Both the position numbers and the translations under genes were made by a program. A stretch of 31,140 bases of DNA, taken from IMG/VR virus record IMGVR_UViG_3300030329_001587, positions 11,424 to 42,563 of that record. The stretch is one strand, 5' to 3'. Below are positions 5,592 through 27,113 of this stretch, one piece after another. A model generated the notes under the pieces. It was not told the origin of the DNA and made no database searches. It worked only from the letters and a program-made list of their open reading frames with translations. The stretch's first letter is position 1, and the number at the start of each line of letters is the position of its first letter. This DNA is from a virus.

Positions 5592-6257
5592 ATGTCTTTT
5601 AATCCAAGCGCAGTAAATTATCAGCAACAGATTTCAGCCTTTGAGCGTGGTGAAGCTCGAAAGAATCAGGCTGAAAAAGAGAGAATGGCTCGTCAGGCTG
5701 AGATAGATAAGAAGAAAGCCTCCAAGCGATCTCCTTTTGAAAAGTTAGTTAGTGCTGGCCTAAGAGGGGCTGCTGCTTACTACACTGGAGGGCTTAGTGA
5801 AACATTAGGCGGTGGTAAGATGATCGACAGCGTTATGCTTGGAGAGGGTGCGGAGCGCAATGAGTTTGGAGATATGGTTGGGCTGGCAAGTGGTCTTGGT
5901 ACTGCAATGTCTGCCAAATCCGCAGGAGATGTTGCCAAAAACCTGGCATCACAATCACTTGCTGATGATAAGATGCAGTCAAGATTAGACACAATTGCAG
6001 CAACTGGAACTGAAGATGATAAAATGGCTGCTTTTGACTTTGCAAGGAAGCGTCGTCAACGTGATGAAGAAAATAGAAAAAGAATGCAAGAGTATAAAGA
6101 TAAAGGTTTTCTGGGTGCATTCTCAAAGCCAGAAAACATTGATTACGGAAAAATAAATTATGTGACGGAACCTTCAGGAGCAATGCCTGAACCTGATGCT
6201 CCACAACTTAGTGGGGATTACATGAGTAATTACCAAGCAAGCCAACTGGGAAGATAA
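5592..6257 (+). CDS. Hypothetical virion-associated protein (221 aa)
   Basis: It has one of the clearest ribosome binding sites in the window: AAGGAGG seven bases upstream of the ATG at 5592. The N-terminus is a basic, charged helix (ARKNQAEKERMARQAEIDKKKAS). A Gly/Ala-rich, moderately hydrophobic central zone follows (about residues 58-100; LRGAAAYYTGGLSETLGGG) and could insert into or associate with membranes. The C-terminal half is charged. Short Gly/Ala-rich proteins of this kind often sit beside ejection proteins in podoviruses, so a minor internal virion role is plausible. No named family is recognised. Confidence 0.65.
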   Translation: MSFNPSAVNYQQQISAFERGEARKNQAEKERMARQAEIDKKKASKRSPFEKLVSAGLRGAAAYYTGGLSETLGGGKMIDSVMLGEGAERNEFGDMVGLASGLGTAMSAKSAGDVAKNLASQSLADDKMQSRLDTIAATGTEDDKMAAFDFARKRRQRDEENRKRMQEYKDKGFLGAFSKPENIDYGKINYVTEPSGAMPEPDAPQLSGDYMSNYQASQLGR

Positions 6258-6259
6258 CT

Positions 6260-8869
6260 ATGGCTAGATTCACTAGGAGAGTAGACAAACAGAATAAGAC
6301 CGTTACTGTCACTGACAATATGACTGGTGAGAGTGTTACAGGGAGGTACCACGACTCTCTTGGTGCGAAAGAAACTGGCGATGCTATTGAAGGGAATCTT
6401 GTTCAAAAAGAAGCAAGGCCAAGGGTTTCAGATGAAACCTCAACGGCCATGCAGACAATGCAATTACAGGATCAGAGTGGAGCCAACAAGATAGCTCAAG
6501 AGGGGTTTCTTTCTGGACTTGAAAGGTACAAGTCACTGAATGCAACGAAAGCACAGCCTGAAGGAGAAAGTGCATTAACCAGGGCAAGTCAAGGAGTATC
6601 CGCTGTTAATAATAATGACCCTGGAATAATGAACATTCCTGATATGCCAAAGCAGGATGTTCAAATGTCCACTAACCTGGCAATGCAAAAGTCTAGGGAT
6701 CAAATCCCTAAACCTGAACAAGGCCCAGTTCCAGCTACAGCCCTCAAAAGAAGTAATTTAGGACCAGATACTCCTAACCCTGGAAACCAAAGATTACCCT
6801 CAATGGAGGAGCTAAAAAGGAGGGCTGTATTAGCAAATCAGGCGGCAAAAGAACGAGAAGAAAATCAAAAACAAAAGGAAGTATCTACTCTTTTAGCCGA
6901 AGCTAATGACCAAGAAAGCCTTCAAAAAGCATTAGCAACAGAGCAAGGTCGTGGCTCTTTTGAAGATGTATTGAAGCCTAAGAAACAGTCTAGTGGTCTT
7001 ATGGAAGAAGCACTAATGGCAAAAGACAAACCCTTGATGACCGAGGTGGATTTATTGACACCTAAAAAAGTTCCTACCGAATTAGCAATGGAGGCAACAG
7101 AAGGAAGTACTGGGGAGTGGAGCTATCCAGTAATTGATGGGAGAATGCACGCTATCAAAAGAGAAAAGAATGCTCCAATGATTGAGGAACAAATGATCTC
7201 AACGGATGAGCCTTCTGGTTTACTGGAGGAGTCTACAATTAGCGGTGATGATCCAGTTAACTTCCTTACTGAAGACATAGTAAGGACAAGAACCCAAGAT
7301 ATAGATGCTGCTGGTGGAATAGATCAAGCAAGATCCCCACAAAGCGAAGATGAAGCAAAATTTGGTCAAGGTGCAGAGTTACAAGAGATGAAGCTAGGAA
7401 GAAGCACTCCTGCATATAGATCGATTGAAGAAACTGAAGTTAAGTTTGATGCAGAAAAACCAGTTCCAAAGAAGATTGCACAGCTACCCAGAGAAGAAAA
7501 GACTGCGGCAAAAGAGGCCAATGGTACTCATGTAAGAGATGAGAGTACAGGTTTTACTTTGAATTTGAGTAGATTAAAGAAGTCTTTTAAACGACAGGAA
7601 CACTTTGCAATGTTAAAGCATATTCCCCAAGAAAATCGTGCGGCTATGTTAGCGGAGTGGGGGTACATTGATCCTGACGAATTAACAGTTGCACAAAAGA
7701 AGTCTGCACTTCAACTTCAGAAGTTAGAAAACGCTAAACTTCAAGGAGCTAAATATCAAATTGATTTAGAACAAGCACAAAAGAATGTAGGCCAATCGCT
7801 AACACCAGTGCAGGAAAAACAATTCTCTATGCTAAAAGATCAGTATAAAGAAGCTGCTGGAAGGAAACCTCCAAATTGGGTAATGATGGAAGAAATTGGC
7901 AACGAGCTAGGGAAAATACATCCTTCTTTTAAAGATAAAAGAAACTATAAACAAATGAAGAAGCAGTACATGGAGAACGAAAAGAAGGAACTAATGAAAG
8001 ATGGTGCTGTTGTTAAAGCGTTAAGTGGAATTGGCGTTAAAGGAAAAGATTATTACGACACAAAAGAAAGATTATACTTGTCTGCAGAGGAAAAGGTAAA
8101 GGGTGCAAGTGTAGAGGATCTTTTTAAAATGAATATGCCTCAAAAAGGTGGGGCTACTACTAATCTAGGTAATCTATTAGAAAGCCAGGGCTTTGCATCG
8201 TGGGAGGCAGTTGATGAACTCCAAAATAATAACCCAGAAAGCAACCAACTTGTGGGATTAAGAAAAGCTCTTGGGTTAAAAGAGGGTTCAGCAATTACAC
8301 CTCAATCTTACAAGGGGTGGGCAATGGATCAGTTTGTAAATAGATCAATGACTGATATTTATGGGGATACTCATTTAATGGTTCAGCAGTTAACAACTGA
8401 ACATATAAGAGCTTTGCAAGATGAAGTTAATAATCCAAATGCTACTGAAGAAGAAACTACTGCTAAAATTCCTAAACCTAAACCAGAACCTAACCCAAAA
8501 CCTGAACCAAAGCCCAACCCTAAAGTAGTAGATACTGTTGAAAAAAACTTACCTTTAATTGATCAAGCATTTGCTAATGAATTGACAAGAGGGGGCAAAG
8601 AGTACCAGACTAAATTTCTTAGTTTCCTTAGAAGTCCAGACAATGTAATTGATGCAATGAAAGTTGGTAAAAAAGACTTAGGCTCCTACATGAGAAAAAG
8701 GAGAAGGGCTTTTAATATGGATGCATCAGCTATAGATAGTTTGGTTAGTGATTCACAAGCTATTGTTGATTTTTTTAGAAAAAATGTTGAAGAGTATGCA
8801 AAACTTCCCGATGAAGCTAAATTTTATATAGCACAAGAAGATCAAAATCTAAAAGCTGGAAGAAAATAG
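6260..8869 (+). CDS. Large hypothetical virion protein (869 aa)
   Basis: It starts three bases after the previous stop. It is highly charged and hydrophilic, with no signal peptide or membrane segment. The first half is disordered-looking with repeated acidic/Met segments (LMTEVDLLTPKKV, MISTDEPSGLLEES). The centre (about residues 420-620) is predicted helix rich in Gln and Lys. A Lys-Pro-Glu-Pro tract near residues 736-754 (KPKPEPNPKPEPKPNPK) is a rigid linker of the kind used to span envelopes or separate domains. The C-terminal ~100 residues look globular and helical. It lies between a Gly/Ala-rich virion-like protein and the giant polyvalent protein, so it is a likely internal core or ejection protein. 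No family is recognised. Confidence 0.65.
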   Translation: MARFTRRVDKQNKTVTVTDNMTGESVTGRYHDSLGAKETGDAIEGNLVQKEARPRVSDETSTAMQTMQLQDQSGANKIAQEGFLSGLERYKSLNATKAQPEGESALTRASQGVSAVNNNDPGIMNIPDMPKQDVQMSTNLAMQKSRDQIPKPEQGPVPATALKRSNLGPDTPNPGNQRLPSMEELKRRAVLANQAAKEREENQKQKEVSTLLAEANDQESLQKALATEQGRGSFEDVLKPKKQSSGLMEEALMAKDKPLMTEVDLLTPKKVPTELAMEATEGSTGEWSYPVIDGRMHAIKREKNAPMIEEQMISTDEPSGLLEESTISGDDPVNFLTEDIVRTRTQDIDAAGGIDQARSPQSEDEAKFGQGAELQEMKLGRSTPAYRSIEETEVKFDAEKPVPKKIAQLPREEKTAAKEANGTHVRDESTGFTLNLSRLKKSFKRQEHFAMLKHIPQENRAAMLAEWGYIDPDELTVAQKKSALQLQKLENAKLQGAKYQIDLEQAQKNVGQSLTPVQEKQFSMLKDQYKEAAGRKPPNWVMMEEIGNELGKIHPSFKDKRNYKQMKKQYMENEKKELMKDGAVVKALSGIGVKGKDYYDTKERLYLSAEEKVKGASVEDLFKMNMPQKGGATTNLGNLLESQGFASWEAVDELQNNNPESNQLVGLRKALGLKEGSAITPQSYKGWAMDQFVNRSMTDIYGDTHLMVQQLTTEHIRALQDEVNNPNATEEETTAKIPKPKPEPNPKPEPKPNPKVVDTVEKNLPLIDQAFANELTRGGKEYQTKFLSFLRSPDNVIDAMKVGKKDLGSYMRKRRRAFNMDASAIDSLVSDSQAIVDFFRKNVEEYAKLPDEAKFYIAQEDQNLKAGRK

Positions 8870-8875
8870 ATCATC

Positions 8876-11800
8876 ATGTCCCTGACTAAATGGTTAGTAT
8901 TTAATAAAAAACCAGGGGAGTCTCACGATGAGGCAGTCAAGAGGTACGCCCTGGAGAATAATCTCAATGAAGATGATGTAAGAAAAGACGATCCAGTCTA
9001 TCAGTATAAAGTTCAACAGTCAGGGTTGCCTGATATGTCACAGATTGGAGCAGAAACTTACCAGCCAAAACCTGAAGTAGTACAAGACCCAGGAGCTTGG
9101 GACCAGTTTAAAGCTGGCGTTGATGAAGCACAGGCTGGTGGATTCAGTTCTCTTGGTGCGCTTGGTGGAGGCTTCCTTGAGGATATTGGTCAACCTGAAT
9201 TGGGCCAGGATCTCAAGGACTGGGCACAGGAGGGAAGAGAAAGAAACCTAGCCGAAGCCGCACTCGTTCCACAACCCAAATCCGTTGATCAAATTTTAGA
9301 AGAAGATCCAGACTCATGGTATGGTCTTCTTCCTGAAACGATTAGAGAAGATTTTCCTAGTGGTGGTGAAATGATTCGTGGCACCCCCACAAGCCTAGCA
9401 GCCGCAACGGTTGCAGCCCCCTTAGCTGTTGGTGCTGGTGCATTAGCCCCTGCTGGTTTAGCCACACTCCTTGTGGGTGGTGGCGTTGGTATGGTTGCAG
9501 GTAACTTGGCAGGATCTGCACAGGTTGCAGGAGAATCTTATGAAAGGGCGAAGGAAGAAAGGGTCATACGAGAACAGCTTGGAGTTGATCCTGACAAGCC
9601 CTTCAAGGATCTCTCACCAGAAGACCAGCAAAAGATAGACAGGATAGCAACAGACATCTCACAGACCTCCTTTGGTCACAGGCTATACACCTCTGGTCTT
9701 GTTGAAATGGCATCCTACATTCCGTATGGCGGTGCGCTACTCAGGTGGGCCGCAGATACTGGACTGGGTACTGCATCTGAGATGTGGGATCGTGAACTTT
9801 ATGCAGAGGATGCGGTGGACAATCTTGTGGACTATGGGCTTCCACGACACAAGGCAGAAGAGTTCCGTGAGAAGATCCTTTCAATGGGTCCAGGCGCAAA
9901 GGAAACCTTTATTAAATCACTGGTACAAGAGGCTGTAACAGGTGGTGGGTTTACTGCGGTTGAGAGTGCTGTTGGTAAGGTGGATGGAAGGGTTAATGCC
10001 TCTGCCACTTTTACAAAAAAGAGGTTAGAGGAAGATCAAAAATTAATTGATGACTATAAGGATGTCCAGAAGCAGATTGCTTTAGAACAGGAAAAACAAC
10101 GAATACAGTTCGATCCTGCAAAAGCAACAGCGCAAGACATTAAAAACAGGATAGCACAGTATGATGTAGGAACAGCAAAAGAAACACTACTCCAATCTCA
10201 ATTACGAAATATCAATGAGCAAAAGAAGTTAGACCTTCAAGATGCAAAATTAGAACAGGAAAAAGAGAAAATTAAAAAGATTCAAGAAGAGAATAAACAA
10301 TTAAAACTTAGTGCTGAAGGGTTAAGTGATTTTGAAGCTGATGCAAAAGCAACAACAGAACAGTTACAAAGGGAAGAGCGAAGAAAAAAAGAGTCGGCTG
10401 AACTAAAAAAGAAAGTTCAGGAAAAGAAAACTTTAGCCTCTGCTAGAAAAAAACAGACAGAAGTAAGAACACAAACTGGTAAAAAACCGAAGACAAGTTT
10501 TACTGAAGCAGAACTTGTTGCACTGGCTAAAGATAAAAGAGAGCCAGAGCCAGGTTTTCAGCAGGATACTTTTGATTTAAAACAAGATAAAGGTATAAGA
10601 ACTGCCGCCGAAATTCAGGCAGAAAGAAAGAGAATAAGAAGGTCTGTTTCACAGAACAAACAAGACGGTGATGTTACAACTTTTGAAAAAACTGAAGACC
10701 AAAAACAAGCAGAGACAGAAAAAAAAGAGGAAGTCACTCTTAGTAAAAGAGAGTGGGAATTGCTTTTTAAAAAGGTTGAGAGAAGAAATAAAAACCTTGC
10801 TGGAAAATACACAATACTGGAAAACTCAGAAGCAGATGCTCAAGTATTAGCCAATGAGTTAGCAAAAGCAAAACTATCACAGTTCCAAGACAAAGATGGA
10901 AACTTTGCTCAAAGAACTGGATTAGAAGATGATCCTTACCTTGTTGCGGCCAGAAAATATTTAGCCACTACAAATGGTTTTGTTCTCCCAACGGCTGATG
11001 GTGGAAAGGTTTTCCTTAATGCATCAAACCTTACAGGTTCCACGAGAGAAGATGCAATACGGTTTGGATCACAGATTGGAATTTTCCATGAACCTATAAC
11101 ACATATAGGTCTAAAAAAGTTTGTCGGTGAAGAAAAGTTTGGAACATTTCTTGACGGTTTCTACAAAACAAATACAGAAAAAATTAATGATTGGGCTACA
11201 AAAGAGGCACTCAGCAAAGAAGGTAAGCTTGCTTATTTAGATGACGCAGATGATATAAACAACTTATCAAAAAGTAAAAAACGTGAACTTGCTGAAGAAT
11301 ATATAGCTCATAAATTTGTTGAGTATGGAGTTAGAGATCCAGATATTATTTCTAAAATTGGAGATGGATTAAAGAGTACTTTACTTGGTCTTCTTGGAAA
11401 AAATAGAGTATCAGATGTTCAGGTCAGAGCAATACTTGCAGACGTTCAACGTCACTACATTGGAGGAAAGAAAAACTTTATTACTGGTGATGCTTTTGAT
11501 CCAACTACTTTTGCTAAATTCAAGCCTGATACTGTAGTTGATGAGGAAAAGGTTCAAGGAGAGGAACAGGGAAAGGATGACGATACGTCTATAAGGTTTA
11601 GTAAGTCAAAGATTCCTAATCTGAAGCGTGACCCAGAGGTTGTTAAAGCAGTTAAGGATTATGAGGCAGGAAAGATTACTCAGGATGAATACATTAAAGT
11701 AGTTCGTGAGAGGATGCCGATCAGTTCAATCCCTAAAGAGGAGGCTGAGATTGCAACGATTGCTGAAATTAATACTGCCTTAAAGCCTGAACAGATTGAA

Positions 11801-14800
11801 ACTGGTATTTATAAAAAAGACAAAAAGGTTACAGAAAAAATTCGTGAGCTGGGTGGTAAGATTGCCGCAAGGCTTGATATTCCTGCTTATTCACGTTTTG
11901 GAACGTGGGTTGTTTCTCTCCATGATGGCACAAAAAAGGGAGGGGCTTCTATTGGTTATTCTCAAACCGCACACCTTACTGGTGGGGTTACTTTTGAATC
12001 AAACCCTAGATCAGCAATAAAAGTTGCAAAAGGTCCAGAGGAAACAGGAGCAGTGACAGGAAAGGGGATGAATAAATCTACTTTTGCTCGTATGTTTGGA
12101 AACTTTAAAGACCATGATCCACAAACTTTGTTTAAAAAAGCAAAGGAACTTATGGATTCTAAAGAATGGGTTCAGGTTGGTATGAATCCGTTCCGACATT
12201 CCTATTTCTACGACAAGGCAGACGGAAACCCCGTTGTTAATGCAGATGAAGTTATCCAAGTGGGAGCATTGGTCCTTGCAAAAAATGTCACAAAAACCAC
12301 TCCAAGTGATCCCCAGTTTCAGGTCGGAAGTACGGATCTAAGGTTCTCCAAGGGGCGCAGACCAACAGACTTTGACCGCTTCGTGTCCTTTGGAGGGAAG
12401 GCACCATTAAAGCAGTACGATAAAAAAAGATTTGATCCTGCAAGGGCACCAAAAGAAACCGCAGAAGATGCACAGCGTTACGTCGATGCAACTTTGTTAG
12501 AGGCAATGAAAAGTAAGACTTGGCCTGAACGATTGGTTAAAGACTTGATGGACTTTGATAAATTTCCAAAAGCGTTTCGGGACTCCTTTAGAGAATCCTT
12601 GAAAACTGGATTAAGAAAACGAGAGCAGGAACTGGCTAATGCGGTCCTAATGAAGGGGCGTGAGGCATATCTACAAAAAAAGAAAGGGAATGTAACGCCT
12701 AGTGTTACAGCACTCAAAGGCTTTGAATCTGGCGGGGCCAAGTGGAAGGAATTGGTTGACGATGTTCCCCAGTTTGCCAGGACTACTCCTGAGATCCAAC
12801 GTGCGCTAAGAGCAGAAAGTAAACCCTCAAAAACTGATGATCTGAGGTTTTCTAAGGCTGGAAAAATAGATAGTCCAGAATTTAAGAAGTGGTTCGGAAA
12901 ATCAAAAGCTGTGTCAAATACGGGAAAACCTAAAATGTTTTTCCACGGAACTAAAAATGTGTTTTCTGAGTTTAAAGGTGCATCATATTTTACTGCATCT
13001 CCAGACGAAGCTGCAAATTATAGTGGATACGATGACGATTATTTTATGAATTGGGCACCTAAAGAAGTTAACTATGACCCCAAAAAACACAAAATCAATT
13101 TAAAAGAAATTGAAGATGGAGGATCGGAAATCGAAACATGGTGGGAGCCTGAAAAGATATATGCGCTAATAGCTGACGACAGTGATAAAAAAATTGTTCA
13201 AGGTAATTCTGTTTTTACTCCTTTTGATCTTTTTTATCAAGAAAAAGCTGTTGATATTTTTGGAACTCCACGGCTTAAAAGAATAGTGGGTGTAAAAGTG
13301 TATGACGAATACAATAATAGTTTTAAAAGCCTTAAAGCCAGACAAAAAGCTCTAAAAGAAGGCAAATTATGGAAGGGGTTTACTAAAATAAAAAGGAATA
13401 AAGAAAAGGCAAACAATACTCCACCTAAAAGTGGAACTATAATCCCTGTATATTTAAGTATTCAGAATCCTAAAATACTTAGTCCTCTTGAAGCAAATGT
13501 TTTAGGTGAAAGAATGGGGTCCATGGACCAGACACAAATAAAGAAATATGTAAAAGATTTGCAAGCTCAGGGATACGACGGAATACAATCACATTCTGAT
13601 ACAGCATCGTTGGATATAGACTCTGAACTTGATTGGGGAGGTGTTCCTGAAATTTTTGTTTCCTTTTCCCCTGAACAGGTCAAGTCACCTTTTAATATGG
13701 GGTCTTTCAGCAGGAAAAGCAAAGACATCCGTTTCTCAAAAGTACCAAGGGCTAAGGCTTCAGATATGTCTCCAGAGTCTTTATTTGCGCCTGAAGGAAA
13801 CATAAGAGCATCCAAGGTACTCCTGTCCAGGGCTGCTCGTTTTGCGATGGCTACAAGCGGTCCTCAGCAGAAAACTGGGTGGCGTTATAAGCTGGCAAAA
13901 AAACTGACTAATAGATTGGTTGCTCAGGGAACTCTTAATGACTCTGATTTGTATAAGGCTCTTAGGCGTAAGGCAAAGGGAACAATATATAATGCTGAGA
14001 AGAGAGGTCGTGAACTGTACGACATACTACGGAAGACAAAACAGCCCGATAAGATCTATGATTACATGACCACAATTGGGGCTAATTCTAATATGATTTC
14101 TGATCCAAAGGAAAGAAAAGCTGCTGAAAACGCTAAGTGGCAGATACAAGCTATTGGAAATGAGTTGGTTAAACGTGGTTTAATGTCTCAAGGTCAGCTT
14201 AATAAATACAATGGACAGTATTTGCCAAGGATGTACTTCAAGCACCTGCTAAGTAAAGATGATTATCAGGCAGTTATTACTGGAGGTACACTTTCAAATA
14301 TGGCTTACCTTAAAAACAGGAAAGATATTCCCAAAGGAATTAGGGAACTAATTCTTGGGGAGGTTAAAGATCCTGCATTCCTCTCAGCAAAAGCTACGGT
14401 TACTCCCCAGACAGACCTTGCAATGTTAAACCTCTTAGAGCAGATATCCGTAGAGGGGGCAAAAGGAGATCGTGCATGGGTTGTTCCAGATACCTTTATT
14501 GACTACGACATCCTTGGAAGGATGAAACATTTTGCTAAAGGGAATACCAAGCTAATCAAAGACCTTGAGTTAAGAGATACTCAAGGAGCAAGCTTCACTG
14601 CTTTCTGGCTAGCAAATGAGGCAGACAGGATTAAACACGTTGCTGATAAATACTTATTTGATAATGTGATTACCCAAACTGAAATGGATCTGGTTAACAG
14701 TCTTGTTGGTGACATGAGGAATGTTTCTGAAAAGGGGGTGCCTAAGAATTTTGATGGTTCCAAATACCGACAACTTCCTAATACACAAAGATACGGAATG

Positions 14801-16420
14801 CTTGCTGGTATGCCTCTGAGGAAAGAGATTTACGATGATATCCTTGGAGGAACTATTAATATGCATGGCGACCTCAGTACTGCCGAAAGGATTCTTGGTG
14901 ATGGTGGTCTTATGGGAAGGTTTGGCAGGTTCTGGAAATGGGCAAAGGTCAGTGCCAACCCTCCTAGTTGGGTCAGAAACTTCACCAGTAACTTGATTCT
15001 GATGAATCTTGGAGGCGTTCCTTTTTATAAGATGCCGATGCTCCTTGCAAAATCGGCTAAGGAATTAAGGTCCAATGGTCAGTATGCACAACTAGCCAAT
15101 GATCTGGGGCTGACTGCTGGTACATTTGCTAATGTGGAAATGGGTAGGATTGAGCGTGAGTTCAACGACATGGCAAGAAGGATGGAACGTGGTAAGGGAC
15201 ATCCAATGGAGGTTCTCGGCTATGCTAAGGGCGCATTTGACAAGGTTAGGGATTGGAGCAGTGACAAGTATGGAAGTATTGATGCCCTTGGCAAGACCAT
15301 GATGCTGATGCACGAGATGCAAAAAGCAAAACTAAAGCCAAAGGATCTTGCATCTTATAGTGCAACTGAAATGGATGCCCTCGATAATGCTGCACTGAAT
15401 GCAGAAAAGTATTTATTTGATTATAGTAATGTTGTTCCCTCAGTGAGATATTTAAGGACAGCAGTTGTCGGTGCGCCTTTCGCTTCATTCTACAGTTTTG
15501 TTGCTCCGTTGATGATTGAAACGGCGATCATGAAACCCTGGAAGTTTGTTCCATATTACGCACTAGGGTTTGCACTCAAGGAAGTATTCAAGGAGAAGAA
15601 CGATTTAGATGAGGAACAGTACGAGGGCTTAAAGGTTGGTCTTGCTGAGTATTATAGGAACAAGGCAAAGAAGAGCATCTTTCCCGCAGGAATTGTTCCG
15701 TGGCCGTGGATAGATGAAAATGGCAGGGTTCAGTTTATTGATCTCAGTTACCTCTTTCCATGGGGAACCTTTTCGGAAATGGCAGGAGAGTTGCAGGCTG
15801 GGGAACCAGTTGAAGCTATTAAAACTGCTGGTCTAATGGGTGGTCCACTCCTTAACCTCGCTTCTGCATCTCTCACTGGAATAGATCCCTTCTCAGGAAG
15901 GACTATTGTTAATGACTTTTCGACTACTCCAACAGAAAAGGGTATGGATATAGTGCATTACCTTTTTAATATGAGTATGCCACCGATGCTTCATGGAATG
16001 AGCCAACCGAATGAACCAGAAGGGGGATTTGGTGCGATTAAAAGACTTTACGAATCAATGACAGGGGTTGTAACTAAGGATGGAGAAGCTAAGTATACTT
16101 CTACCCAGGCAGTCCTGAAGATGGGCGGTATTAATATCTCTCCACTTGCAGTTCCAGAGGGAAGAAATAAGATGCTACGATATGAGTACTCAAGGATTCA
16201 GAAACTTCAACGTGAAATGAAGCGTAGAGTTCGTGATATGATGATCATGCAACGTCCTCAGTCTGAGATTAAGGAAGAGATCAAGGAGTACGGAGAGAAG
16301 TTACAAACTATGACTAAAGAGTTCACTGAAAAAGTGAAGAAAAGTGTTCCCCCGAAACAGCTTCTGAAAGCTAGAGAGGCCGCACTCAAGGCTCAGGCTG
16401 AAGCTCGTCGAGCCGCTTAG
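8876..16420 (+). CDS. Giant polyvalent virion protein with metallopeptidase- and ART-like domains (2514 aa)
   Basis: Layout in residues: an N-terminal ~160 unassigned residues; a Gly/Ala hydrophobic stretch (about 170-222) that could associate with membrane; a helical domain (about 240-370); a long Glu/Lys/Gln coiled coil (about 375-540); a metallopeptidase-like domain with HEPITH at 738-743 and AEEYIAH at 806-812; a module with RLDIPAYSRFGTW near 999 and VQVGMNPFRHSYFYDKA, recurrent in phage polyvalent proteins; an ADP-ribosyltransferase-like domain (about 1330-1615); then a ~900-residue C-terminal region with KWAKVSANPPSWVRNFTSN near 2021 and hydrophobic helices near 2195-2235, resembling LPD38-type domains. 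Four RFSK motifs separate modules. Last gene of the operon, in the place of the T7 gp16-like ejection protein. Family knowledge suggests delivery into the host with DNA. Catalytic activity is inferred. Confidence 0.8.
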   Translation: MSLTKWLVFNKKPGESHDEAVKRYALENNLNEDDVRKDDPVYQYKVQQSGLPDMSQIGAETYQPKPEVVQDPGAWDQFKAGVDEAQAGGFSSLGALGGGFLEDIGQPELGQDLKDWAQEGRERNLAEAALVPQPKSVDQILEEDPDSWYGLLPETIREDFPSGGEMIRGTPTSLAAATVAAPLAVGAGALAPAGLATLLVGGGVGMVAGNLAGSAQVAGESYERAKEERVIREQLGVDPDKPFKDLSPEDQQKIDRIATDISQTSFGHRLYTSGLVEMASYIPYGGALLRWAADTGLGTASEMWDRELYAEDAVDNLVDYGLPRHKAEEFREKILSMGPGAKETFIKSLVQEAVTGGGFTAVESAVGKVDGRVNASATFTKKRLEEDQKLIDDYKDVQKQIALEQEKQRIQFDPAKATAQDIKNRIAQYDVGTAKETLLQSQLRNINEQKKLDLQDAKLEQEKEKIKKIQEENKQLKLSAEGLSDFEADAKATTEQLQREERRKKESAELKKKVQEKKTLASARKKQTEVRTQTGKKPKTSFTEAELVALAKDKREPEPGFQQDTFDLKQDKGIRTAAEIQAERKRIRRSVSQNKQDGDVTTFEKTEDQKQAETEKKEEVTLSKREWELLFKKVERRNKNLAGKYTILENSEADAQVLANELAKAKLSQFQDKDGNFAQRTGLEDDPYLVAARKYLATTNGFVLPTADGGKVFLNASNLTGSTREDAIRFGSQIGIFHEPITHIGLKKFVGEEKFGTFLDGFYKTNTEKINDWATKEALSKEGKLAYLDDADDINNLSKSKKRELAEEYIAHKFVEYGVRDPDIISKIGDGLKSTLLGLLGKNRVSDVQVRAILADVQRHYIGGKKNFITGDAFDPTTFAKFKPDTVVDEEKVQGEEQGKDDDTSIRFSKSKIPNLKRDPEVVKAVKDYEAGKITQDEYIKVVRERMPISSIPKEEAEIATIAEINTALKPEQIETGIYKKDKKVTEKIRELGGKIAARLDIPAYSRFGTWVVSLHDGTKKGGASIGYSQTAHLTGGVTFESNPRSAIKVAKGPEETGAVTGKGMNKSTFARMFGNFKDHDPQTLFKKAKELMDSKEWVQVGMNPFRHSYFYDKADGNPVVNADEVIQVGALVLAKNVTKTTPSDPQFQVGSTDLRFSKGRRPTDFDRFVSFGGKAPLKQYDKKRFDPARAPKETAEDAQRYVDATLLEAMKSKTWPERLVKDLMDFDKFPKAFRDSFRESLKTGLRKREQELANAVLMKGREAYLQKKKGNVTPSVTALKGFESGGAKWKELVDDVPQFARTTPEIQRALRAESKPSKTDDLRFSKAGKIDSPEFKKWFGKSKAVSNTGKPKMFFHGTKNVFSEFKGASYFTASPDEAANYSGYDDDYFMNWAPKEVNYDPKKHKINLKEIEDGGSEIETWWEPEKIYALIADDSDKKIVQGNSVFTPFDLFYQEKAVDIFGTPRLKRIVGVKVYDEYNNSFKSLKARQKALKEGKLWKGFTKIKRNKEKANNTPPKSGTIIPVYLSIQNPKILSPLEANVLGERMGSMDQTQIKKYVKDLQAQGYDGIQSHSDTASLDIDSELDWGGVPEIFVSFSPEQVKSPFNMGSFSRKSKDIRFSKVPRAKASDMSPESLFAPEGNIRASKVLLSRAARFAMATSGPQQKTGWRYKLAKKLTNRLVAQGTLNDSDLYKALRRKAKGTIYNAEKRGRELYDILRKTKQPDKIYDYMTTIGANSNMISDPKERKAAENAKWQIQAIGNELVKRGLMSQGQLNKYNGQYLPRMYFKHLLSKDDYQAVITGGTLSNMAYLKNRKDIPKGIRELILGEVKDPAFLSAKATVTPQTDLAMLNLLEQISVEGAKGDRAWVVPDTFIDYDILGRMKHFAKGNTKLIKDLELRDTQGASFTAFWLANEADRIKHVADKYLFDNVITQTEMDLVNSLVGDMRNVSEKGVPKNFDGSKYRQLPNTQRYGMLAGMPLRKEIYDDILGGTINMHGDLSTAERILGDGGLMGRFGRFWKWAKVSANPPSWVRNFTSNLILMNLGGVPFYKMPMLLAKSAKELRSNGQYAQLANDLGLTAGTFANVEMGRIEREFNDMARRMERGKGHPMEVLGYAKGAFDKVRDWSSDKYGSIDALGKTMMLMHEMQKAKLKPKDLASYSATEMDALDNAALNAEKYLFDYSNVVPSVRYLRTAVVGAPFASFYSFVAPLMIETAIMKPWKFVPYYALGFALKEVFKEKNDLDEEQYEGLKVGLAEYYRNKAKKSIFPAGIVPWPWIDENGRVQFIDLSYLFPWGTFSEMAGELQAGEPVEAIKTAGLMGGPLLNLASASLTGIDPFSGRTIVNDFSTTPTEKGMDIVHYLFNMSMPPMLHGMSQPNEPEGGFGAIKRLYESMTGVVTKDGEAKYTSTQAVLKMGGINISPLAVPEGRNKMLRYEYSRIQKLQREMKRRVRDMMIMQRPQSEIKEEIKEYGEKLQTMTKEFTEKVKKSVPPKQLLKAREAALKAQAEARRAA
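10976..11330 (+). other. Metallopeptidase-like domain (HExxH) of the giant protein
   Basis: Residues about 700-818 of the giant protein. The motif IFHEPITHIGLKKFVGEEKF contains HExxH, with His738, Glu739 and His743. About 64 residues later, AEEYIAH offers Glu807/Glu808 as a possible third metal ligand. The HExxH-hydrophobic-GL arrangement followed by an (A/E)E motif matches the peptidase domain found in phage polyvalent proteins. The proline inside HExxH is unusual because that segment is normally helical, so activity is not certain. Confidence 0.65.
12863..13741 (+). other. ADP-ribosyltransferase-like domain (ART-PolyVal type) of the giant protein
   Basis: Residues about 1330-1622. The domain opens with SPEFKKWFGKSKAVSNTGKP, then FFHGTKNVFSEFKGASYFTA, with HGT at 1357-1359 and the YFTASPDEAANY strand near 1371. 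It closes with VYLSIQNPKIL, a GYDGIQSHSD segment, PEIFVSFSPEQVKSP (Glu1592 region) and finally KDIRFSK. This order is characteristic of the ADP-ribosyltransferase domain of phage polyvalent proteins. The His of HGT and a late Glu are the expected NAD-binding and catalytic positions. The host target is unknown. Confidence 0.75.
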
Positions 16421-17164: not shown

Positions 17165-19065
17165 CCTGGCTCAAATTCGCATTGGTTTCCAACACAGGCT
17201 AACTCCTGGCTGGCAACAGTATAGTCTTCCTGCTCATACTCTGACAGTTTAGACCAATCGACTTCAGGAATCTGTTCTAAAAGTTTATTATACTCTTCTT
17301 CAGTACACTCCTGGTATGGAGCTTGTTGATAAGAGTGGTCAGAGTGAGGAAGAAATGATACGCCAGACATCCAAGAGAAGTTATTATAGACCCAGGCACC
17401 CACACTTAACCACTCATCTTCTTTTACGCTGACAGTGATAGAGGGTTTGTGAGTACACCAGAATTCTTGATAGTCCTTCCATACTGATAGCTGTTCTACT
17501 GCGCTCATCTTGTCCCTGTCCACACTTTTGGTGGGACTCTTCATGGCGAAGGAGAATACTAGAGTATCGTTGGGTTTCATAACATCTGGTGCATTGGGAA
17601 ATCCCTGCTCCTGCATGAACCTACTGAGAGGATCTTTTTTGTCCATCCGTACTGTCCTTATGTAGTAAGGAGAATGTCTTGCGTGTATTCCACTTGCACT
17701 ATCACATAATTGACTGACAGTTCCGCTTGGTTTGATACAAGTGATGGATGCGCTCTTATTAATCCCAATCTTTTCGGCAAGTTCTTCATTGGTTCTGATC
17801 GCTTCATCTCTGAGGTTCTGAAGGATGTGAGGTTCAGGATAGGCGAAGAGTTCATTGTCCATTATTCCAGTCAATGAAACTCCTAGTAATCTTTCCTCTT
17901 CACAGTTCTTTTTCCATTCTCGTGAGAGATATTTAAAGTTGGTAAGAGTTGATTGATAAGTTCCCAGGATCGTAGCAAGCCTGACCTTGCGTAATACGTC
18001 TTCTTCCTTATCCTCTGCACGGATAATGACCTCTGAAAGGTTACAGAACTCTCTGGACTTGAGAATTATCTCAGAGCAAGGGTTCGTGCCATAGTGTTCT
18101 CTTGGCTCTGCTCTTCTCCCATGTTTAAAGGCTTGCAATCTTGATGCCTTAGATGAGAAAATTCCACGCTCTCCTGACTTTGAATCATATAATGCGGTCC
18201 ATTCACGGAGAAAGGTTCCTGTTGTCGGTTCCTCATGATAGTTTGCTGAGTTATTTGCCAGTGCCCTCTGAGGGTTTTCTTTCCACCACTCTCCTGACTT
18301 GCAGTGTCGCATTTCGTCGTCATTCAGGTCGCTCAAAGAGATCAATGCTGATCGTCTGACTCCACCAACCACGACAATCTCTGCAATCTTGCATACAATA
18401 TCGTGGCATTCAATAGGCTTGAGCCTTCTCCCTCTGGCGATTTCAAATAATGCGGTAACAAAAATGAAAAGTTTATCCAGTGGTTCAGGGCCAGATGCTC
18501 TGCCACCGAAAGTCTTGAGGATGGAACCTGCTTGTCGGACCTTTGAGAGATCCCATTTAGGAATGTGCCCTGAGTAGAGAAGCCCCATTACTTCCTTCAA
18601 CGCTCTTGCCCAACCAAGTTTTGAGTCTGCAACTACCACAGTAGTTTCAGTTGGGAATAATTCCTCTGGAACTATGGGCAGCTTTTCAGTGTATTTTGAT
18701 TCAACTGAGAATCCTACACCAGTTCCATTCATAAGAACGTATAGGATCTCATCGAATGACCTGGGACTATCTACCTGGACGTAGGAGCAATTGTAGCCAG
18801 CGATATTTTCCTTCTTTAAAGCTGGTCCTGCGGTCATGAGACAGCGCATGGAAGGCATAATCTCCTGCTTGAGGATTGCTTCTCTGATTTCCTCAATCTC
18901 TCCGTCAGGATCATAGTCGTGCTGTTCTTGCAGATGCTCCCTAAAGAAGTTGATGTAGCGATCTACGGTTTCAGACCATGTTTCTCTGCGCTTCTTATCG
19001 TAGTCCCATCTGGAGTATCTCGACAGATGGATAAACTGTTGGTATTGGGTAGGAAGTTCTGTCAT
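17146..19065 (-). CDS. nrdJ: Adenosylcobalamin-dependent (class II) ribonucleotide reductase, monomeric type
   Basis: It reduces ribonucleotides (triphosphates in the monomeric RTPR group) to deoxyribonucleotides using a B12-generated radical. Visible residues fit the family. Cys93 (AGYNCSYVQ) and Cys341 (REFCNLSEV) are the dithiol pair. Cys330 and Glu332 in GTNPCSEI are the thiyl-radical site. The C-terminal CVGNQC (624-629) is the swinging redox pair. At 639 residues it is about 100 shorter than the Lactobacillus leichmannii enzyme. Start is the ATG at 19065, overlapping the mazG stop as ATGA. Neighbours are MazG upstream and a phosphate transporter downstream, forming a nucleotide/phosphate supply unit. 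It implies a host that makes or imports cobalamin. Confidence 0.93.
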   Translation of the reverse strand: MTELPTQYQQFIHLSRYSRWDYDKKRRETWSETVDRYINFFREHLQEQHDYDPDGEIEEIREAILKQEIMPSMRCLMTAGPALKKENIAGYNCSYVQVDSPRSFDEILYVLMNGTGVGFSVESKYTEKLPIVPEELFPTETTVVVADSKLGWARALKEVMGLLYSGHIPKWDLSKVRQAGSILKTFGGRASGPEPLDKLFIFVTALFEIARGRRLKPIECHDIVCKIAEIVVVGGVRRSALISLSDLNDDEMRHCKSGEWWKENPQRALANNSANYHEEPTTGTFLREWTALYDSKSGERGIFSSKASRLQAFKHGRRAEPREHYGTNPCSEIILKSREFCNLSEVIIRAEDKEEDVLRKVRLATILGTYQSTLTNFKYLSREWKKNCEEERLLGVSLTGIMDNELFAYPEPHILQNLRDEAIRTNEELAEKIGINKSASITCIKPSGTVSQLCDSASGIHARHSPYYIRTVRMDKKDPLSRFMQEQGFPNAPDVMKPNDTLVFSFAMKSPTKSVDRDKMSAVEQLSVWKDYQEFWCTHKPSITVSVKEDEWLSVGAWVYNNFSWMSGVSFLPHSDHSYQQAPYQECTEEEYNKLLEQIPEVDWSKLSEYEQEDYTVASQELACVGNQCEFEPGWTNPS

Positions 19066-19394
19066 CGTTTATCCCCATCACCACGGATTACTCCACGTTC
19101 TTTTCGTGATTGCAGTTTTGCTATGTTTTCCGAGGCAACGATTGATAAATCATACTTTAAATGACCTGCAAACTGAGCGACGAACCACATAATATCACCC
19201 AGTTCGTACATCAGTTCTTCTGTGTTAACATCCTTATCTTTGCGATAGGACTTGGCGACCTTTGAACATAGTTCGCCTACTTCTCCTGCTAATCCAGTTG
19301 ACAAATATTCCATCCAGTTTTCATCTGGGTAGATTGCAGTTTCTTTTGCCCTGCTTTGGTACTGGTCTAAATCTTTTATTAGTTCATCCAACAT
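19062..19394 (-). CDS. mazG: MazG-like nucleotide pyrophosphohydrolase
   Basis: The 110-residue protein has a single all-alpha MazG-type domain. The metal-binding signature is clear: E38xxE41 in GLAGEVGELCSKV and E64xxD67 in MYELGDIMWFV, with a Lys/Arg segment between them. The C-terminus has the KERGVIRGDGDKR tail common in phage versions. The family hydrolyses NTPs or dNTPs to monophosphates and has been proposed to act on non-canonical nucleotides or to influence (p)ppGpp signalling; which applies here cannot be told. The ATG directly abuts the primase TAA, and AAGGA lies six bases upstream of the ATG. It overlaps nrdJ by four bases. Confidence 0.9.
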   Translation of the reverse strand: MLDELIKDLDQYQSRAKETAIYPDENWMEYLSTGLAGEVGELCSKVAKSYRKDKDVNTEELMYELGDIMWFVAQFAGHLKYDLSIVASENIAKLQSRKERGVIRGDGDKR

Positions 19395-21707
19395 TTACTT
19401 TCCTTGAATTAAAGTTATTTTTCCACCTTTCACGGCCTTACCTTCCATTCTCTCCATGATGATCCTTCCTGACTCTTCCAGTGATGTGAGTATGTAATCG
19501 TACTCTGAATGACCCCCATCTAGGATTCGTGATGACAGTAACTTCTGTCGAAGGACTGCTCCCCCTCGTCCTGCAATATACTCAACAATCTTTCTTTGCT
19601 TGTTCTGATGAGAACTCTCACCAAGTTCACGTTGAAACAAGTGTCTTGTGCATTTTTCAGCATAAAGAGACAAAGAGATCCCAGCCATAACGGAAGCATC
19701 CGATATGGTTTGGCTCTCGCTATCTAGCAAATACTGAAAAAGAATAGCTGACTTCAGTACACCTGGACTCCATCGTTTTAGGAACGGATCAAGGATGAAC
19801 TTGGTACTGTCATCGGAGCTATTGAAGCGATCAAATAGATTGTTGTGGTATTCCTCAAAGACTTTTTTAGCGTCTGAGGTAAGAGTATATTCTATCGGAA
19901 CCGTGATATTATCAAGCTGGTTATATAACTCACTGAGTAGTCTGTAAGAGTGCAGTTCCTGTATCTTTTTAGTAGTCACAGGGAGTGCAGTTGGTATGTT
20001 TTCAGTGGGTGGTGGCTTGAACAGCAAGAATCGTGCCAAGAACCCAGATCCTGCATCATCTTTTCCAAGTAGCCCCTGTAAAAACTCAATGGTTGATACT
20101 CCAGAGATCGCTACAAATGGATGTTTAAGTACCTTACTTCCTCTGGTTCTGGTTACATCCTCAAAGTATGAAGGAACATCGTATAATTCGGTGAGATGCT
20201 GCCTGAACCCCCTATTATGGCTAGTCTCCAACATGGCAAGCCAAGCACCGAATTCAGACAGCAACCAGACACCGCCACCAGTGTCGTCAATTCTATCAAT
20301 ACACGCTTCCCATGATGCTTTATTAGGCAGTATCTTGCGTAATGATCTGAATCTCTCTAGTTCGTTTATCGTTTCTAGGAGTTCATCATTGTCATCATCC
20401 ACTCCAGCTTCACGGAGAGCGTTTAATCTACCTTCAGACTCCTTCACTTCATAGATAATCCTTTCCTCTCGGTCCTTTAGTCGAGATGACCCTGCGTTCA
20501 GGGCCGTGGTTTTAAATGATCCACTCTCAGCAATGCTTAAACACCAGAGATTGCCGTAGAGAGGTACGAAATAGTTCGGTGGTTTGATTGATAGCTTGAT
20601 TCCTGCGTGTGCCCCAAGGCAAGAGAGAGCCGTGCCGTACATGATTGCAGAGTTTGCATCTGTCAATTCGCAGGCTTCTCGTATGTGATCCTTGAGAATG
20701 CTAGGGATGAGATTATCATCAAACTCTTCAGGATCTGATCGTTCCAGTAAGGAGTTACATATCTCTTTTAATTCCTCTGGTCGTGGTCCTGGTATATTGG
20801 TCTTTTGATGATGCCTCAGTTCTGCTGATCGGCGCAGGAAGAGTTCACTGACCTTGATCTTGAAGTAGTCACAGAGGGTATTGAGAGAACAACCTGAGTG
20901 GCACCTCATGAGGATCTTGTCCTGCTCTAAGGTGATGCTCAGGGAAGGTTTCTGGTCTTCATGCGTGGGGCATATCGCATTAGCCGTTTGGCCCGACCAA
21001 GAAACCCCCCTAAGCTGGGCGATTATATTATCGAAGGTTTCTTTGAGGTTGTTCTCAACCTGGGATTTTTCGTCCTCATTCAGAAAGTCATCTACGTTTA
21101 ACTCGCCAAGACTCCAAGACTTGTCCAGGTTTAGAAGTGATGTGGCAGGAGTCCATGGTTGTTTGTTCTCCTCGATCAAAGTCAGGAGTGACTCCTTCTT
21201 TGATTGGGGTGTTCCTTTTATTGAGTCAAGGTAGTCAGTGGTATCACCGCCCTTCTGGGATAAGCCTAACGAGACTACCCAAACCTTTGCACAATCTTTG
21301 AAGTGTTCACCACTCTCCTGAGCAAACTTCTCACCTGCCTCATCGTTATCTGGGATGATGAAGATGTGTTCAAATTGCTTAAAGTATTTGTCAACGAAGT
21401 CTGGTTGTCGCTTTAGGAGTGGACCCCATGCGTTGCTTCCACCTGCTATGGTGGTGGCCGTGATGCCAATGGATTGAAGGTTGTCTACATCCTTCTCACC
21501 CTCTACAAAGACTATTGCCTTTGCATCTTTGATATTCGGCCATTGATAGGGAACCTGTTGAACGCCTTCCCAGTTCCAGTGTTCTTTACCGTCCTGGTCG
21601 TAGCGTAGTCTGCGGAAGTTTTTACCTGGAAACTTAACTACAAGGTAAAGGAGTCGCCCATTCCCATCCCTGTATTCATAGCTTGTCCTGTCTTGTTGAT
21701 TTGTCAT
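19395..21707 (-). CDS. Primase-helicase: Toprim, CHC2-like zinc finger and DUF3987 P-loop region
   Basis: Three regions are visible (numbering from the ATG at 21707; a GTG at 21716 would add three residues). A Toprim domain comes first, with VFVEGEKD near 66-73 and IPDNDEAG near 118-125, preceded by the YEYRDGNGRLLY strand common before phage Toprims. A zinc finger follows with CPTH near 246 and CHSGC near 269. Then comes a DUF3987-type ATPase core with AESGSFKTT near 393, a divergent Walker A, and GVWLLSEFGAWLAM. Together these imply primer synthesis and possibly helicase activity at the fork. Toprim before the zinc finger is the reverse of the usual order. It overlaps the resolvase gene by 32 bases and is followed immediately by mazG. 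Confidence 0.85.
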   Translation of the reverse strand: MTNQQDRTSYEYRDGNGRLLYLVVKFPGKNFRRLRYDQDGKEHWNWEGVQQVPYQWPNIKDAKAIVFVEGEKDVDNLQSIGITATTIAGGSNAWGPLLKRQPDFVDKYFKQFEHIFIIPDNDEAGEKFAQESGEHFKDCAKVWVVSLGLSQKGGDTTDYLDSIKGTPQSKKESLLTLIEENKQPWTPATSLLNLDKSWSLGELNVDDFLNEDEKSQVENNLKETFDNIIAQLRGVSWSGQTANAICPTHEDQKPSLSITLEQDKILMRCHSGCSLNTLCDYFKIKVSELFLRRSAELRHHQKTNIPGPRPEELKEICNSLLERSDPEEFDDNLIPSILKDHIREACELTDANSAIMYGTALSCLGAHAGIKLSIKPPNYFVPLYGNLWCLSIAESGSFKTTALNAGSSRLKDREERIIYEVKESEGRLNALREAGVDDDNDELLETINELERFRSLRKILPNKASWEACIDRIDDTGGGVWLLSEFGAWLAMLETSHNRGFRQHLTELYDVPSYFEDVTRTRGSKVLKHPFVAISGVSTIEFLQGLLGKDDAGSGFLARFLLFKPPPTENIPTALPVTTKKIQELHSYRLLSELYNQLDNITVPIEYTLTSDAKKVFEEYHNNLFDRFNSSDDSTKFILDPFLKRWSPGVLKSAILFQYLLDSESQTISDASVMAGISLSLYAEKCTRHLFQRELGESSHQNKQRKIVEYIAGRGGAVLRQKLLSSRILDGGHSEYDYILTSLEESGRIIMERMEGKAVKGGKITLIQGK

Positions 21708-22062
21708 ACGCCCCACAGCAAATTATGATGTACCCCTTTTTCCTTGGATCAATTTCAAACCTCTCGATTAGGATCTTGTCAACCTGAGAGTCATCTGTGA
21801 ACCAAGGGATTGAATCCTCAACTATTTTAATTAGATTTGATATATCTCTTTTCCTGTTGTCTGGTGGATATACCTCAATGGTTAACCAGACTCGATCTTC
21901 CTTACCAGTGAAGTGACACTTTTCTTGTGCAAGTATAATGCCACATGCATCCTTGTATGCTTTCCCTTTCTTTTTTAGAAACACTTTTCCTGAGCGGTTT
22001 GTACCATACATGGCGTTAACCGATACAGGCCAAGGTAGTATTGCTTTGTGCATTTCAGTCAT
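21676..22062 (-). CDS. rusA: RusA-like Holliday junction resolvase
   Basis: The 128-residue protein matches the RusA family in length and motifs. The N-terminal strand PWPVSVNAMYG is followed by a Lys-rich KVFLKKKGKAYKDA. The catalytic region is PPDNRKRDISNLIK (acidic residues Asp68 and Asp73) followed by FTDDSQVDKI (Asp90/Asp91). RusA dimers cut four-way junctions, which fits resolving replication or recombination intermediates before packaging. It sits between the SSB-like gene and the primase gene in the replication block. No good ribosome binding site is seen before the ATG at 22062; an ATG three codons later is an alternative. Confidence 0.9.
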   Translation of the reverse strand: MTEMHKAILPWPVSVNAMYGTNRSGKVFLKKKGKAYKDACGIILAQEKCHFTGKEDRVWLTIEVYPPDNRKRDISNLIKIVEDSIPWFTDDSQVDKILIERFEIDPRKKGYIIICCGAYDKSTRQDKL

Positions 22063-22126
22063 AAGGATGGGGGCAAGGCCATGGAACGAAACCTCACCCC
22101 CTGGCAGGGAAACAGGAAACCCCGCC

Positions 22127-22633
22127 TTAGAATGGCAGGCCGTCTTTCTCCTTATCAGTTACTGGAGAAGATCCAGTAGGAGACTGGTTAGAAGAGAACG
22201 ATGAAACGGAACGGATCTCGTTGTATCCGTTCTTGTTAGGTCCGTAATCAACTATTACGAACTTACCAGCAATATCCTCAAAGTCATTCATAGCTTTGAG
22301 TCCAACAGCAGATGCGAGTCTGGCAACCTTGCGCTTTGAAATTCCATCTTTAGTTTTGCCAGCTTGATCGTGCTGGTTATTCATATAGATGGCTTCAAAC
22401 AGCCAACTGCTATCGTAATCCCCACCTGTTATTTCAAGCGGCAAAAGGATTTTGTTGTGTCCTTTTGAGTCCTGGCGTGGCTCAGGAAGTGGACGTTGAA
22501 TTTGAGCGACGTATTCCCCTGGTGGAACTTCAACACGCTCACGTTTCTGTTCTGTCTCAAGAATTTCTTGGACGTTTTCGATTGAGAATGCAGTGTCCTG
22601 TATTCCCATGTCTGAGTTAGTATGCGGATGCAT
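22127..22633 (-). CDS. DUF669-family single-stranded-DNA-binding-like protein
   Basis: The 168-residue protein has the DUF669 layout. It opens the fold with EVPPGEYVAQIQRPLPEPRQ, then SKGHNKILLPLEITGGDYDS, a helix with RKVARLASAVGLK, and GKFVIVDYGPNKNGYNEI. It ends in a disordered Ser-rich tail and an acidic-hydrophobic tip (EKDGLPF), much like the DxxPF tip with which SSB proteins recruit partners. Genes of this family commonly pair with Sak4-type ATPases, as here. The probable role is coating single-stranded DNA during replication and annealing. Its ATG overlaps the ATPase stop as TAATG with AAAGGA upstream. Confidence 0.8.
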   Translation of the reverse strand: MHPHTNSDMGIQDTAFSIENVQEILETEQKRERVEVPPGEYVAQIQRPLPEPRQDSKGHNKILLPLEITGGDYDSSWLFEAIYMNNQHDQAGKTKDGISKRKVARLASAVGLKAMNDFEDIAGKFVIVDYGPNKNGYNEIRSVSSFSSNQSPTGSSPVTDKEKDGLPF

Positions 22634-23457
22634 TATTTTCCTTTATCTGAGTTCTGTGTTTGAGGGCCACCCCAGAAATCGTCGATTAATTTCTGGTACT
22701 CATTCCAGTCTGCTGGAATTTCGGCAGGTAGATTGAATCGGTTCTTTGCATCAACTCCCATTGATCCACTGGTGTAGAGGAACCTCTTACCTGACTGGAT
22801 TGCTCGTGAGTCTTTGCGGTTGAAGCCTGTTTCAATCTTTTTTACGATGGTTTCAAATGCAACGAATAGGATAACGTCAGCCCATTCAGTTATGTCGGCA
22901 GATATTGCCTTGTGTAACTTCAGGACGAAGCTATCGTATGGCTCCATCGTTGGTTTGTTAATTGTCCTCACCTGTGTGTGACAGATCAAGATCGGTTGAA
23001 TGGACTTGGAGTCACGCAGGTAATTCATAGCACTGAGGAAGCGTTGCATCTCCCCTCTTGCGTAAGAATACCCCTTACCGTATCCCATGTCCTCTATATG
23101 TGCAACTTTATGGTTTATGCATACCTTAGCCTGGGCAAGCATTTCTATCTTGTCTACGCTATCTACAATGATGCGTTTAATGGAGCCACTATCGTTAGCC
23201 ACATCACGCATAGTATCCATTAACGTGTCCCACTTGGCAGCATTTTCCTTTACATCTCCAGTGGGTAGGCAATCGTGTATGTATTCGACTCCTGTTTTAT
23301 GAAATGCAGTTTCTCCACCATCATCTGCATTGATTACAAATGCAGGTTCTTTTTTGGTGTTACTTGAGCAAGCAAAGGTAGTCTTTCCTGCCCCTGCTTC
23401 TCCTTCTACTACCATTTTCTCAGGCTTTCTCATGATTGCCCTTTTGAATTTTTCCAT
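22633..23457 (-). CDS. AAA/RecA-like P-loop ATPase, Sak4-type
   Basis: Walker A is VEGEAGAGKTTFA (Lys25, Thr26) and Walker B is KRIIVDSVDKIE (about 94-105). A QPILICHTQVRTI segment near 158 is a sensor-like strand, followed by DITEWADVILFVAFE. This is the AAA_24/Sak4 pattern: a RecA-core ATPase used by phages for single-strand annealing with an SSB partner. The next gene is the DUF669 protein, the usual companion. The ATG at 23457 lies four bases after the upstream stop and has no obvious ribosome binding site, suggesting coupling. The annealing role is by family; no experiment is implied. Confidence 0.85.
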   Translation of the reverse strand: MEKFKRAIMRKPEKMVVEGEAGAGKTTFACSSNTKKEPAFVINADDGGETAFHKTGVEYIHDCLPTGDVKENAAKWDTLMDTMRDVANDSGSIKRIIVDSVDKIEMLAQAKVCINHKVAHIEDMGYGKGYSYARGEMQRFLSAMNYLRDSKSIQPILICHTQVRTINKPTMEPYDSFVLKLHKAISADITEWADVILFVAFETIVKKIETGFNRKDSRAIQSGKRFLYTSGSMGVDAKNRFNLPAEIPADWNEYQKLIDDFWGGPQTQNSDKGK

Positions 23458-23461
23458 TTGC

Positions 23462-23887
23462 TTACATGCTTAAAAGTTTACTAATATCCAAATCATCACC
23501 ATCATATTCATGCAACTTCTGTGCCTTCCATGTTTCAAAAAGTTTTTTAAGTGTGTCTTTTATCTCGTGTTCGTAGCACCGTTTAGTACAGCGTAGACAA
23601 AAGAGGTGATTGCCCTTCTTAGTATTGTGAGCCAACCACCATACAGAGTGTTCGTCGGGTCGATCTCCACAGAAGCATGGGAAGTTATTGTTTTCTCCAC
23701 CTTTTCGGTACCCAAGGTCGTGAAGTCTTTCCACCACGATCCTGTCCTCTCTCCTTCTCTTCTCCCACTCTGGACTGCTCCTTTTCTTCTTTTGTTTCCA
23801 AAATTTCTTGGAGTTGCCCTGTGGTCGAGAGGGCGTTGAGGAGAAGTCTTGTGGCTTCTTCGTAGTTTTCGTGTCGGATTTCGTCAT
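23462..23887 (-). CDS. Zinc-finger protein (up to 141 aa), start uncertain
   Basis: The C-terminal ~90 residues look genuine. NNFPCFCGDRPDEH, an LAHNTKKGNH segment and LFCLRCTKRC give a cluster of five Cys and two His able to bind zinc, followed by a charged helix and an acidic end (DGDDLDISKLL). The N-terminal ~50 residues are Lys/Arg/Ser-rich and overlap the upstream gene in another frame over 203 bases, so the ATG at 23887 may be too early. An in-frame GTG (IVVERL region, near 23740) preceded by AGAGGACAGGATC is a good alternative. The finger resembles primase-type fingers and could support DNA binding. No named family. Confidence 0.6.
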   Translation of the reverse strand: MTKSDTKTTKKPQDFSSTPSRPQGNSKKFWKQKKKRSSPEWEKRRREDRIVVERLHDLGYRKGGENNNFPCFCGDRPDEHSVWWLAHNTKKGNHLFCLRCTKRCYEHEIKDTLKKLFETWKAQKLHEYDGDDLDISKLLSM

Positions 23888-25653: not shown

Positions 25654-25661
25654 TCTGTCTC

Positions 25662-27108: not shown

Positions 27109-27113
27109 AAGGG

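Follow-up and report, generated by a model that had tools for sequence, protein, structure and literature searches.

A predicted giant ejection protein of a podovirus-like phage with peptidase-like and ADP-ribosyltransferase domains

Does a phage that ends its structural operon with a gene for a 2514-residue protein send enzymes into its host together with its DNA? The question is raised by a gene in the IMG/VR virus record IMGVR_UViG_3300030329_001587, of which positions 11,424 to 42,563 were analyzed; this whole stretch of 31,140 nucleotides is referred to here as the window. The first-pass annotation had described an ejectable protein that combines a peptidase-like and an ADP-ribosyltransferase-like (ART) domain. 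We favor, and regard as likely, an explanation in which a podovirus-like phage has this gene product as its largest ejection protein, with a structural C-terminus joined to an enzymatic payload. Enzymes that act on the host are probably injected together with the phage DNA, and the protein is well supported as a member of a class already known, that of polyvalent injected proteins.

The giant gene and its surroundings

The gene, described as encoding a giant ejection-type polyvalent protein on the basis of its reading frame, relatives and operon position, occupies positions 8876..16420 of the plus strand (20299-27840 in the 42,563-base virus record) and is an open and intact reading frame of 2514 aa. 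It closes the structural operon as the last of a run of plus-strand genes, one of which is internal-virion-protein-like (phrog_511 match), and faces a reverse-strand block with a ribonucleotide reductase. In podovirus MW202615 the giant gene is likewise placed before a reverse-strand ribonucleotide reductase. Upstream lie a 221-aa gene in a gp14-like position (5592..6257, +), with a homologue at the same place in L094 (41%), and an 869-aa gene in a gp15-like position (6260..8869, +), homologues of which immediately precede the giant gene in L007, L096 and L094; in L094 the counterparts of both genes follow the same order. The gp14-gp15-gp16 gene order is small, medium and giant (PMC8954989), with which the sizes of the operon genes here agree; the gene that the earlier claim put at the end of a structural operon is the last member of a gp14/gp15/gp16-like run. 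Elsewhere in the window, on the minus strand, a gene at 30345-31040 matches integrase (phrog_95) and DNA invertase (phrog_125) families, and genes for a MazG-like pyrophosphatase (19062-19394) and a Sak4-like annealing protein (22633-23457) adjoin those for ribonucleotide reductase and primase/helicase.

A search of viral contigs with the whole protein gave zero relatives; these were found once the C-terminus had been aligned with MW202615. In L007, L094, L095 and L096 both ends of the protein and the peptidase domain are kept, and the middle payload is exchanged. Three adjoining tail-fibre-like genes in L006 (733-6573) all match phrog_9942.

The N-terminal region, aa 1-372 (8876..9991, +), is conserved in the closest relatives, with 49% identity to L007, and contains the most hydrophobic stretch of the protein as judged by hydropathy (aa 183-201). 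It has no family match and matches no known ejection protein. PHROG matches of the P0002 N-terminus to virion RNA polymerase and DarB were dropped as evidence as no such matches were seen for the P0001 family, and hhalign of P0002 against the P0001-family N-termini was negative. The N-terminal region is followed by a charged, K/E/Q-rich stretch at aa 380-640 (10013..10795, +) that, read by eye from the translation, is probably a coiled coil. Further along, beyond the peptidase-like domain, aa 918-1150 (NPFRHSYFYDK...VIQVG; 11627..12325, +; phrog_586, E 7e-4) form a domain without a Pfam match. This sequence, NPFRHSYFYDK...ADEVIQVG, is common to portal-adjacent giant genes of Roseobacter phages; in phages CRP-207 and CRP-9, and in MW202701, the RHSYFY-domain giant genes sit between the portal and coat genes. 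For the region at aa 1160-1320 (12353..12835, +), read from the translation, no family match was found.

The peptidase-like domain, the ART domain and their linkers

The motifs on which the first-pass annotation rested are all located where it had placed them: HEPITH at 738-743, AEEYIAH at 806-812, HGT at 1357-1359, YFT at 1371-1373 and PEIFVSF at 1591-1597. The first of these does form a peptidase-like motif, although its spacing is that of HExxxH (+5) rather than HExxH. From the composition of the protein, 0.03 HExxH or HExxxH motifs would be expected. All relatives recovered by sequence search (P0001, L007, L094, L095 and L096) keep HEPI[TA]H...LAEE within two conserved blocks, HEPI[TA]H[LI]G and LAEE[YF][LI]A[HN]K, such that this phage domain family retains H738, E739 and H743, and then E807-E808 some 65 residues on. 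When these relatives were compared with a distant HExxxH.G...EE set, hhalign returned a probability of 98 (E 1.9e-13); the distant set had been chosen by its motif, but the match of 144 columns runs well beyond that motif. With an HExxxH and a downstream glutamate on a second helix, the domain has the motif features of the HEXXXH group of zincin-like MPTases of polyvalent proteins named by Iyer et al. 2017 (PMC5512222).

A structural model of the domain (pLDDT 76, pTM 0.70) consists of a helix, two strands, a long helix bearing HEPITH and a later long helix bearing the EE pair. Comparison with solved folds (Foldseek/VIA) gave no zincin among the matches; in a PDB fold search the hits were phycobilins and globins, with E > 0.5, and a single helical match of Z 5.8, all of which were set aside as uninformative. 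BFVD gave two large proteins (E 0.006 and 0.055). Searched by sequence, PDB contained no significant match to the peptidase region, to the full protein or to the C-terminal profile. The peptidase assignment thus stands as membership in a conserved HExxxH...EE family, although no solved zincin was matched and the motif spacing is non-classical. Catalysis is accordingly only predicted, because no solved zincin fold was matched, and aa 690-890 (10943..11545, +), with H738, E739, H743, E807 and E808, are best described as a predicted metal-dependent peptidase, in fold and metal binding as well as in catalysis.

The ART-PolyVal domain spans aa 1330-1605 (12863..13690, +). When aa 1329-1612 are scanned alone, Pfam PF18760 is matched with 46.1 bits (E 1.1e-11), above the curated cut-off of 31.2; the score is 46.5 bits with the neighbours joined and 29.7, just under the cut-off, for the full-length protein. 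The type, 'WFGdSkvvd..GkPlvvYHGT...FYFTd...GYDGi...FsPeQIKS', is widespread, with at least 407 relatives in viral contigs. Across 22 aligned ART domains H1357 and D1568 (in YDGI) are among the invariant residues and the column of Y1371 is mostly aromatic, in agreement with the H-Y-D active-site residues of ART-PolyVal; D1568 would be the aspartate that Iyer et al. describe as catalytic. The HGT...YFT...PEIFVSF pattern had thus pointed to a domain that Pfam recognizes as ART-PolyVal, but its last element is not the conserved acid, because the acid position in PEIFVSF varies across the 22 domains and D1568 is invariant.

In the AlphaFold model of this domain the core is confident, whereas an insert at about 1389-1516 is poorly modelled. 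Among solved structures the model comes closest to the catalytic domains of PARP and tankyrase and to chain B of PDB 9k3a, tied at Z 6.2-6.9; 9k3a chain B is the top match at Z 6.9, tied with the PARPs and below the tool's guideline of 8, and the Foldseek E-values alone are non-significant. The Pfam match, the 22-row alignment and the presence of PARP-type folds among the best structural matches together bear out the ART identity. With this ART and the HExxxH domain, a single reading frame carries two unrelated effector domains, as expected of a polyvalent protein.

A feature that the first-pass annotation did not list is a repeated linker, [IL]RFSK, which occurs four times and in every copy at a domain border: at aa 907-910 (11594..11605, +), 1156-1159 (12341..12352, +), 1324-1327 (12845..12856, +) and 1619-1622 (13730..13741, +), the coordinates being those of RFSK. 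These four RFSK copies compare with 0.03 expected from composition, for a Poisson P of about 4.5e-8 that overstates the surprise, the motif having been chosen after sight. The codons differ among the four copies, so it is the peptide and not the DNA that has been kept, and recent copying at the DNA level is thereby ruled out as the origin of the linkers. In five related giants the broader pattern [ILVF][RK][FY]S[KR] is observed 11 times against 0.31 expected. Other polyvalent proteins, L102, L111, L116, L125 and L170, each repeat their own variant of a DIR[FY]S tag several times, the variants being R[FY]SLR, R[FY]SR, RFSN, RYSLR and RYSL. Elsewhere among phages a DIR[FY]S tag is in many cases simply the tail of an ART domain, and the repeated variants of the polyvalent proteins, too, often have this place.

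The RFSK linker may serve for processing or as a tag for docking, or may simply be a spacer. A more specific reading, which we consider doubtful, is that the HExxxH peptidase within the protein recognizes the [IL]RFSK copies as its cleavage sites, such that a packaged effector polyprotein cuts itself at assembly or after injection. On this reading, other polyvalent proteins would have linker versions of their own (R[FY]SLR, R[FY]SR or RFSN). DIRFS-type linkers and peptidase motifs do co-occur (25/25 versus 36/50, Fisher p 0.003), but the co-occurrence is not decisive because p becomes 0.07 for proteins longer than about 1500 aa, in a hand count. A literature search on linkers and self-cleavage found nothing. 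The repeated linker makes the long-standing proposal that polyvalent proteins process themselves testable concretely and cheaply.

The alternative that survives best keeps the protein packaged in the same way and directs the peptidase at a host protein rather than at its own chain; we judge it possible, if on the unlikely side. Such a role is among those listed by Iyer et al. (PMC5512222), but the four linkers of the same type at domain borders provide candidate internal sites, and in P1 DdrB, a protein with such a domain, processing precedes packaging (PMC5512222). Of the two host-modifying activities that the annotation had proposed, only the ART is a clear candidate; autoprocessing by the peptidase is, from published precedent, at least as likely as an attack on the host.

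The C-terminal module and packaging

The C-terminal pre-ejectosome or LPD38-like module, aa 1683-2454 (13922..16237, +), is recognized by hhalign to the cyanophage A-4L ORF26 family and to the LPD38 region, and recurs in 84 viral contigs. The proteins that contain it are either giants of about 2100-3400 aa or have about 1085 aa. Many relatives are of the latter kind, which has no recognized HExxH or HExxxH motif, and the payload is therefore dispensable for the module. The Pfam LPD38 model (PF18857) matches neither this protein nor ten relatives, although it does match 11 of 24 other polyvalent records. In profile-profile comparison with LPD38-containing C-termini, hhalign gave 93.6-97.4%, against less than 1% for reversed, shuffled and unrelated controls. 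The annotated LPD38-like C-terminus is thus upheld by hhalign only, and the name 'LPD38-like' is used in preference to LPD38 because the Pfam model itself is unmatched.

The same module matches the ORF26 family of cyanophage A-4L, with an hhalign probability of 96.4% in default (local) mode and of 99.0% with -glob 0 (E 2.7e-17, 615 columns); controls for this comparison gave 0.4% or less. ORF26 and ORF27 of A-4L are chains A and B of PDB 9k3a, 'Cyanophage A4 pre-ejectosome', and it is from the title and chains of this entry that the residence of the A4 homologues in the pre-ejectosome is taken. In ORF27 a YHGT at 1425 and a subsequent GSGTYFS lie in register with the ART profile, to which this ART-like region is weakly matched by sequence (hhalign 11%). 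The two neighbouring A4 genes, ORF26 and ORF27, would then correspond to one fused chain here. The protein encoded before ORF27, the internal protein ORF28 (L190, 25321-28497), matches M23 peptidase and lytic transglycosylase structures.

Could the protein be a purely structural ejection protein, with peptidase-like and ART-like domains that have decayed or that act as folding or packing spacers? The stand-alone modules of about 1085 aa that lack a recognized HExxH or HExxxH motif would suit such a role, as would the long unmodelled insert in the ART and the swapping of payload among the closest relatives, of which L007 carries a different ART (1999) and L094-L096 none that was recognized. We nonetheless think it improbable, as H738, E739, H743, E807, E808, H1357 and D1568 are all kept at about 15-45% identity to distant relatives.

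That the protein is packaged as an ejection protein, as the annotation had deduced from position, is supported indirectly by the homology of its C-terminus to ORF26, by operon order and by synteny. We infer packaging of this particular protein. Plasmids also encode polyvalent proteins (PMC5512222), but it is very unlikely that the protein is never packaged and instead, once synthesized by the infected cell, acts in the cytoplasm as an early effector or in late host takeover: its gene is last in a structural operon, and its C-terminal module is homologous to a pre-ejectosome chain and weakly matches a PHROG called virion structural protein.

Proposed mechanism and known systems

The domain homologies, the conservation of predicted catalytic residues, the operon order and the homology of the C-terminus to a virion-component protein were established by computation, and from these we infer enzyme activity, targets, timing and processing. 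In the favored explanation, a payload-bearing ejection protein, the C-terminal ~770 residues would act as a structural module in the pre-ejectosome core of the virion, and the N-terminal two thirds would be an exchangeable payload of the predicted HExxxH metallopeptidase, the RHSYFY domain and the ART. During infection the chain, with its domains loosely joined, would thread through the tail together with the DNA and refold in the host. The ART could then ADP-ribosylate host targets ahead of phage gene expression, and the peptidase would most likely process its own chain, releasing or trimming domains, or else cut a host protein.

Several known systems resemble parts of this arrangement. T4 Alt is likewise a packaged and injected ART, but belongs to the R-S-E clade of ARTs and is no part of a polyvalent protein (PMC5512222). 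The virion RNA polymerase of phage N4 is a packaged and ejected giant in which an HExxH domain precedes a large helical C-terminus (PMC12633501), and thus shares the giant chain in which a zincin-motif domain adjoins such a C-terminus; it differs in having HExxH and an RNA polymerase, and its C-terminal domain has no detectable homology to the module described here. With T7-type gp14, gp15 and gp16 the shared feature is a rise in gene size, from small through medium to largest, in the closing part of the structural operon; the assignment is made by position only, and no sequence match was found. In cyanophage A-4L, where the giant genes also come after an internal protein gene, ORF26 resembles the C-terminal module and ORF27 has the ART-like YHGT...TYFS region, but these are two genes rather than one chain, and no HExxH or HExxxH motif was found in either.

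A close parallel is provided by the phage polyvalent proteins of Iyer et al. 2017 (PMC5512222), which likewise combine unrelated enzymatic domains, MPTase and ART-PolyVal, in one giant chain. Unlike those, the protein described here has a C-terminal module traced to a pre-ejectosome protein and RFSK linkers at its domain borders. The class and the strategy are thus known; what is new is the ejectosome anchor, the link of the parts to a solved ejection machine, together with the linker pattern. Polyvalent injected effectors, a predicted class, are in this way tied to an ejection machine that has been solved structurally, and the tie to the A4 ejectosome therefore makes packaging testable in a culturable relative, cyanophage A-4L.
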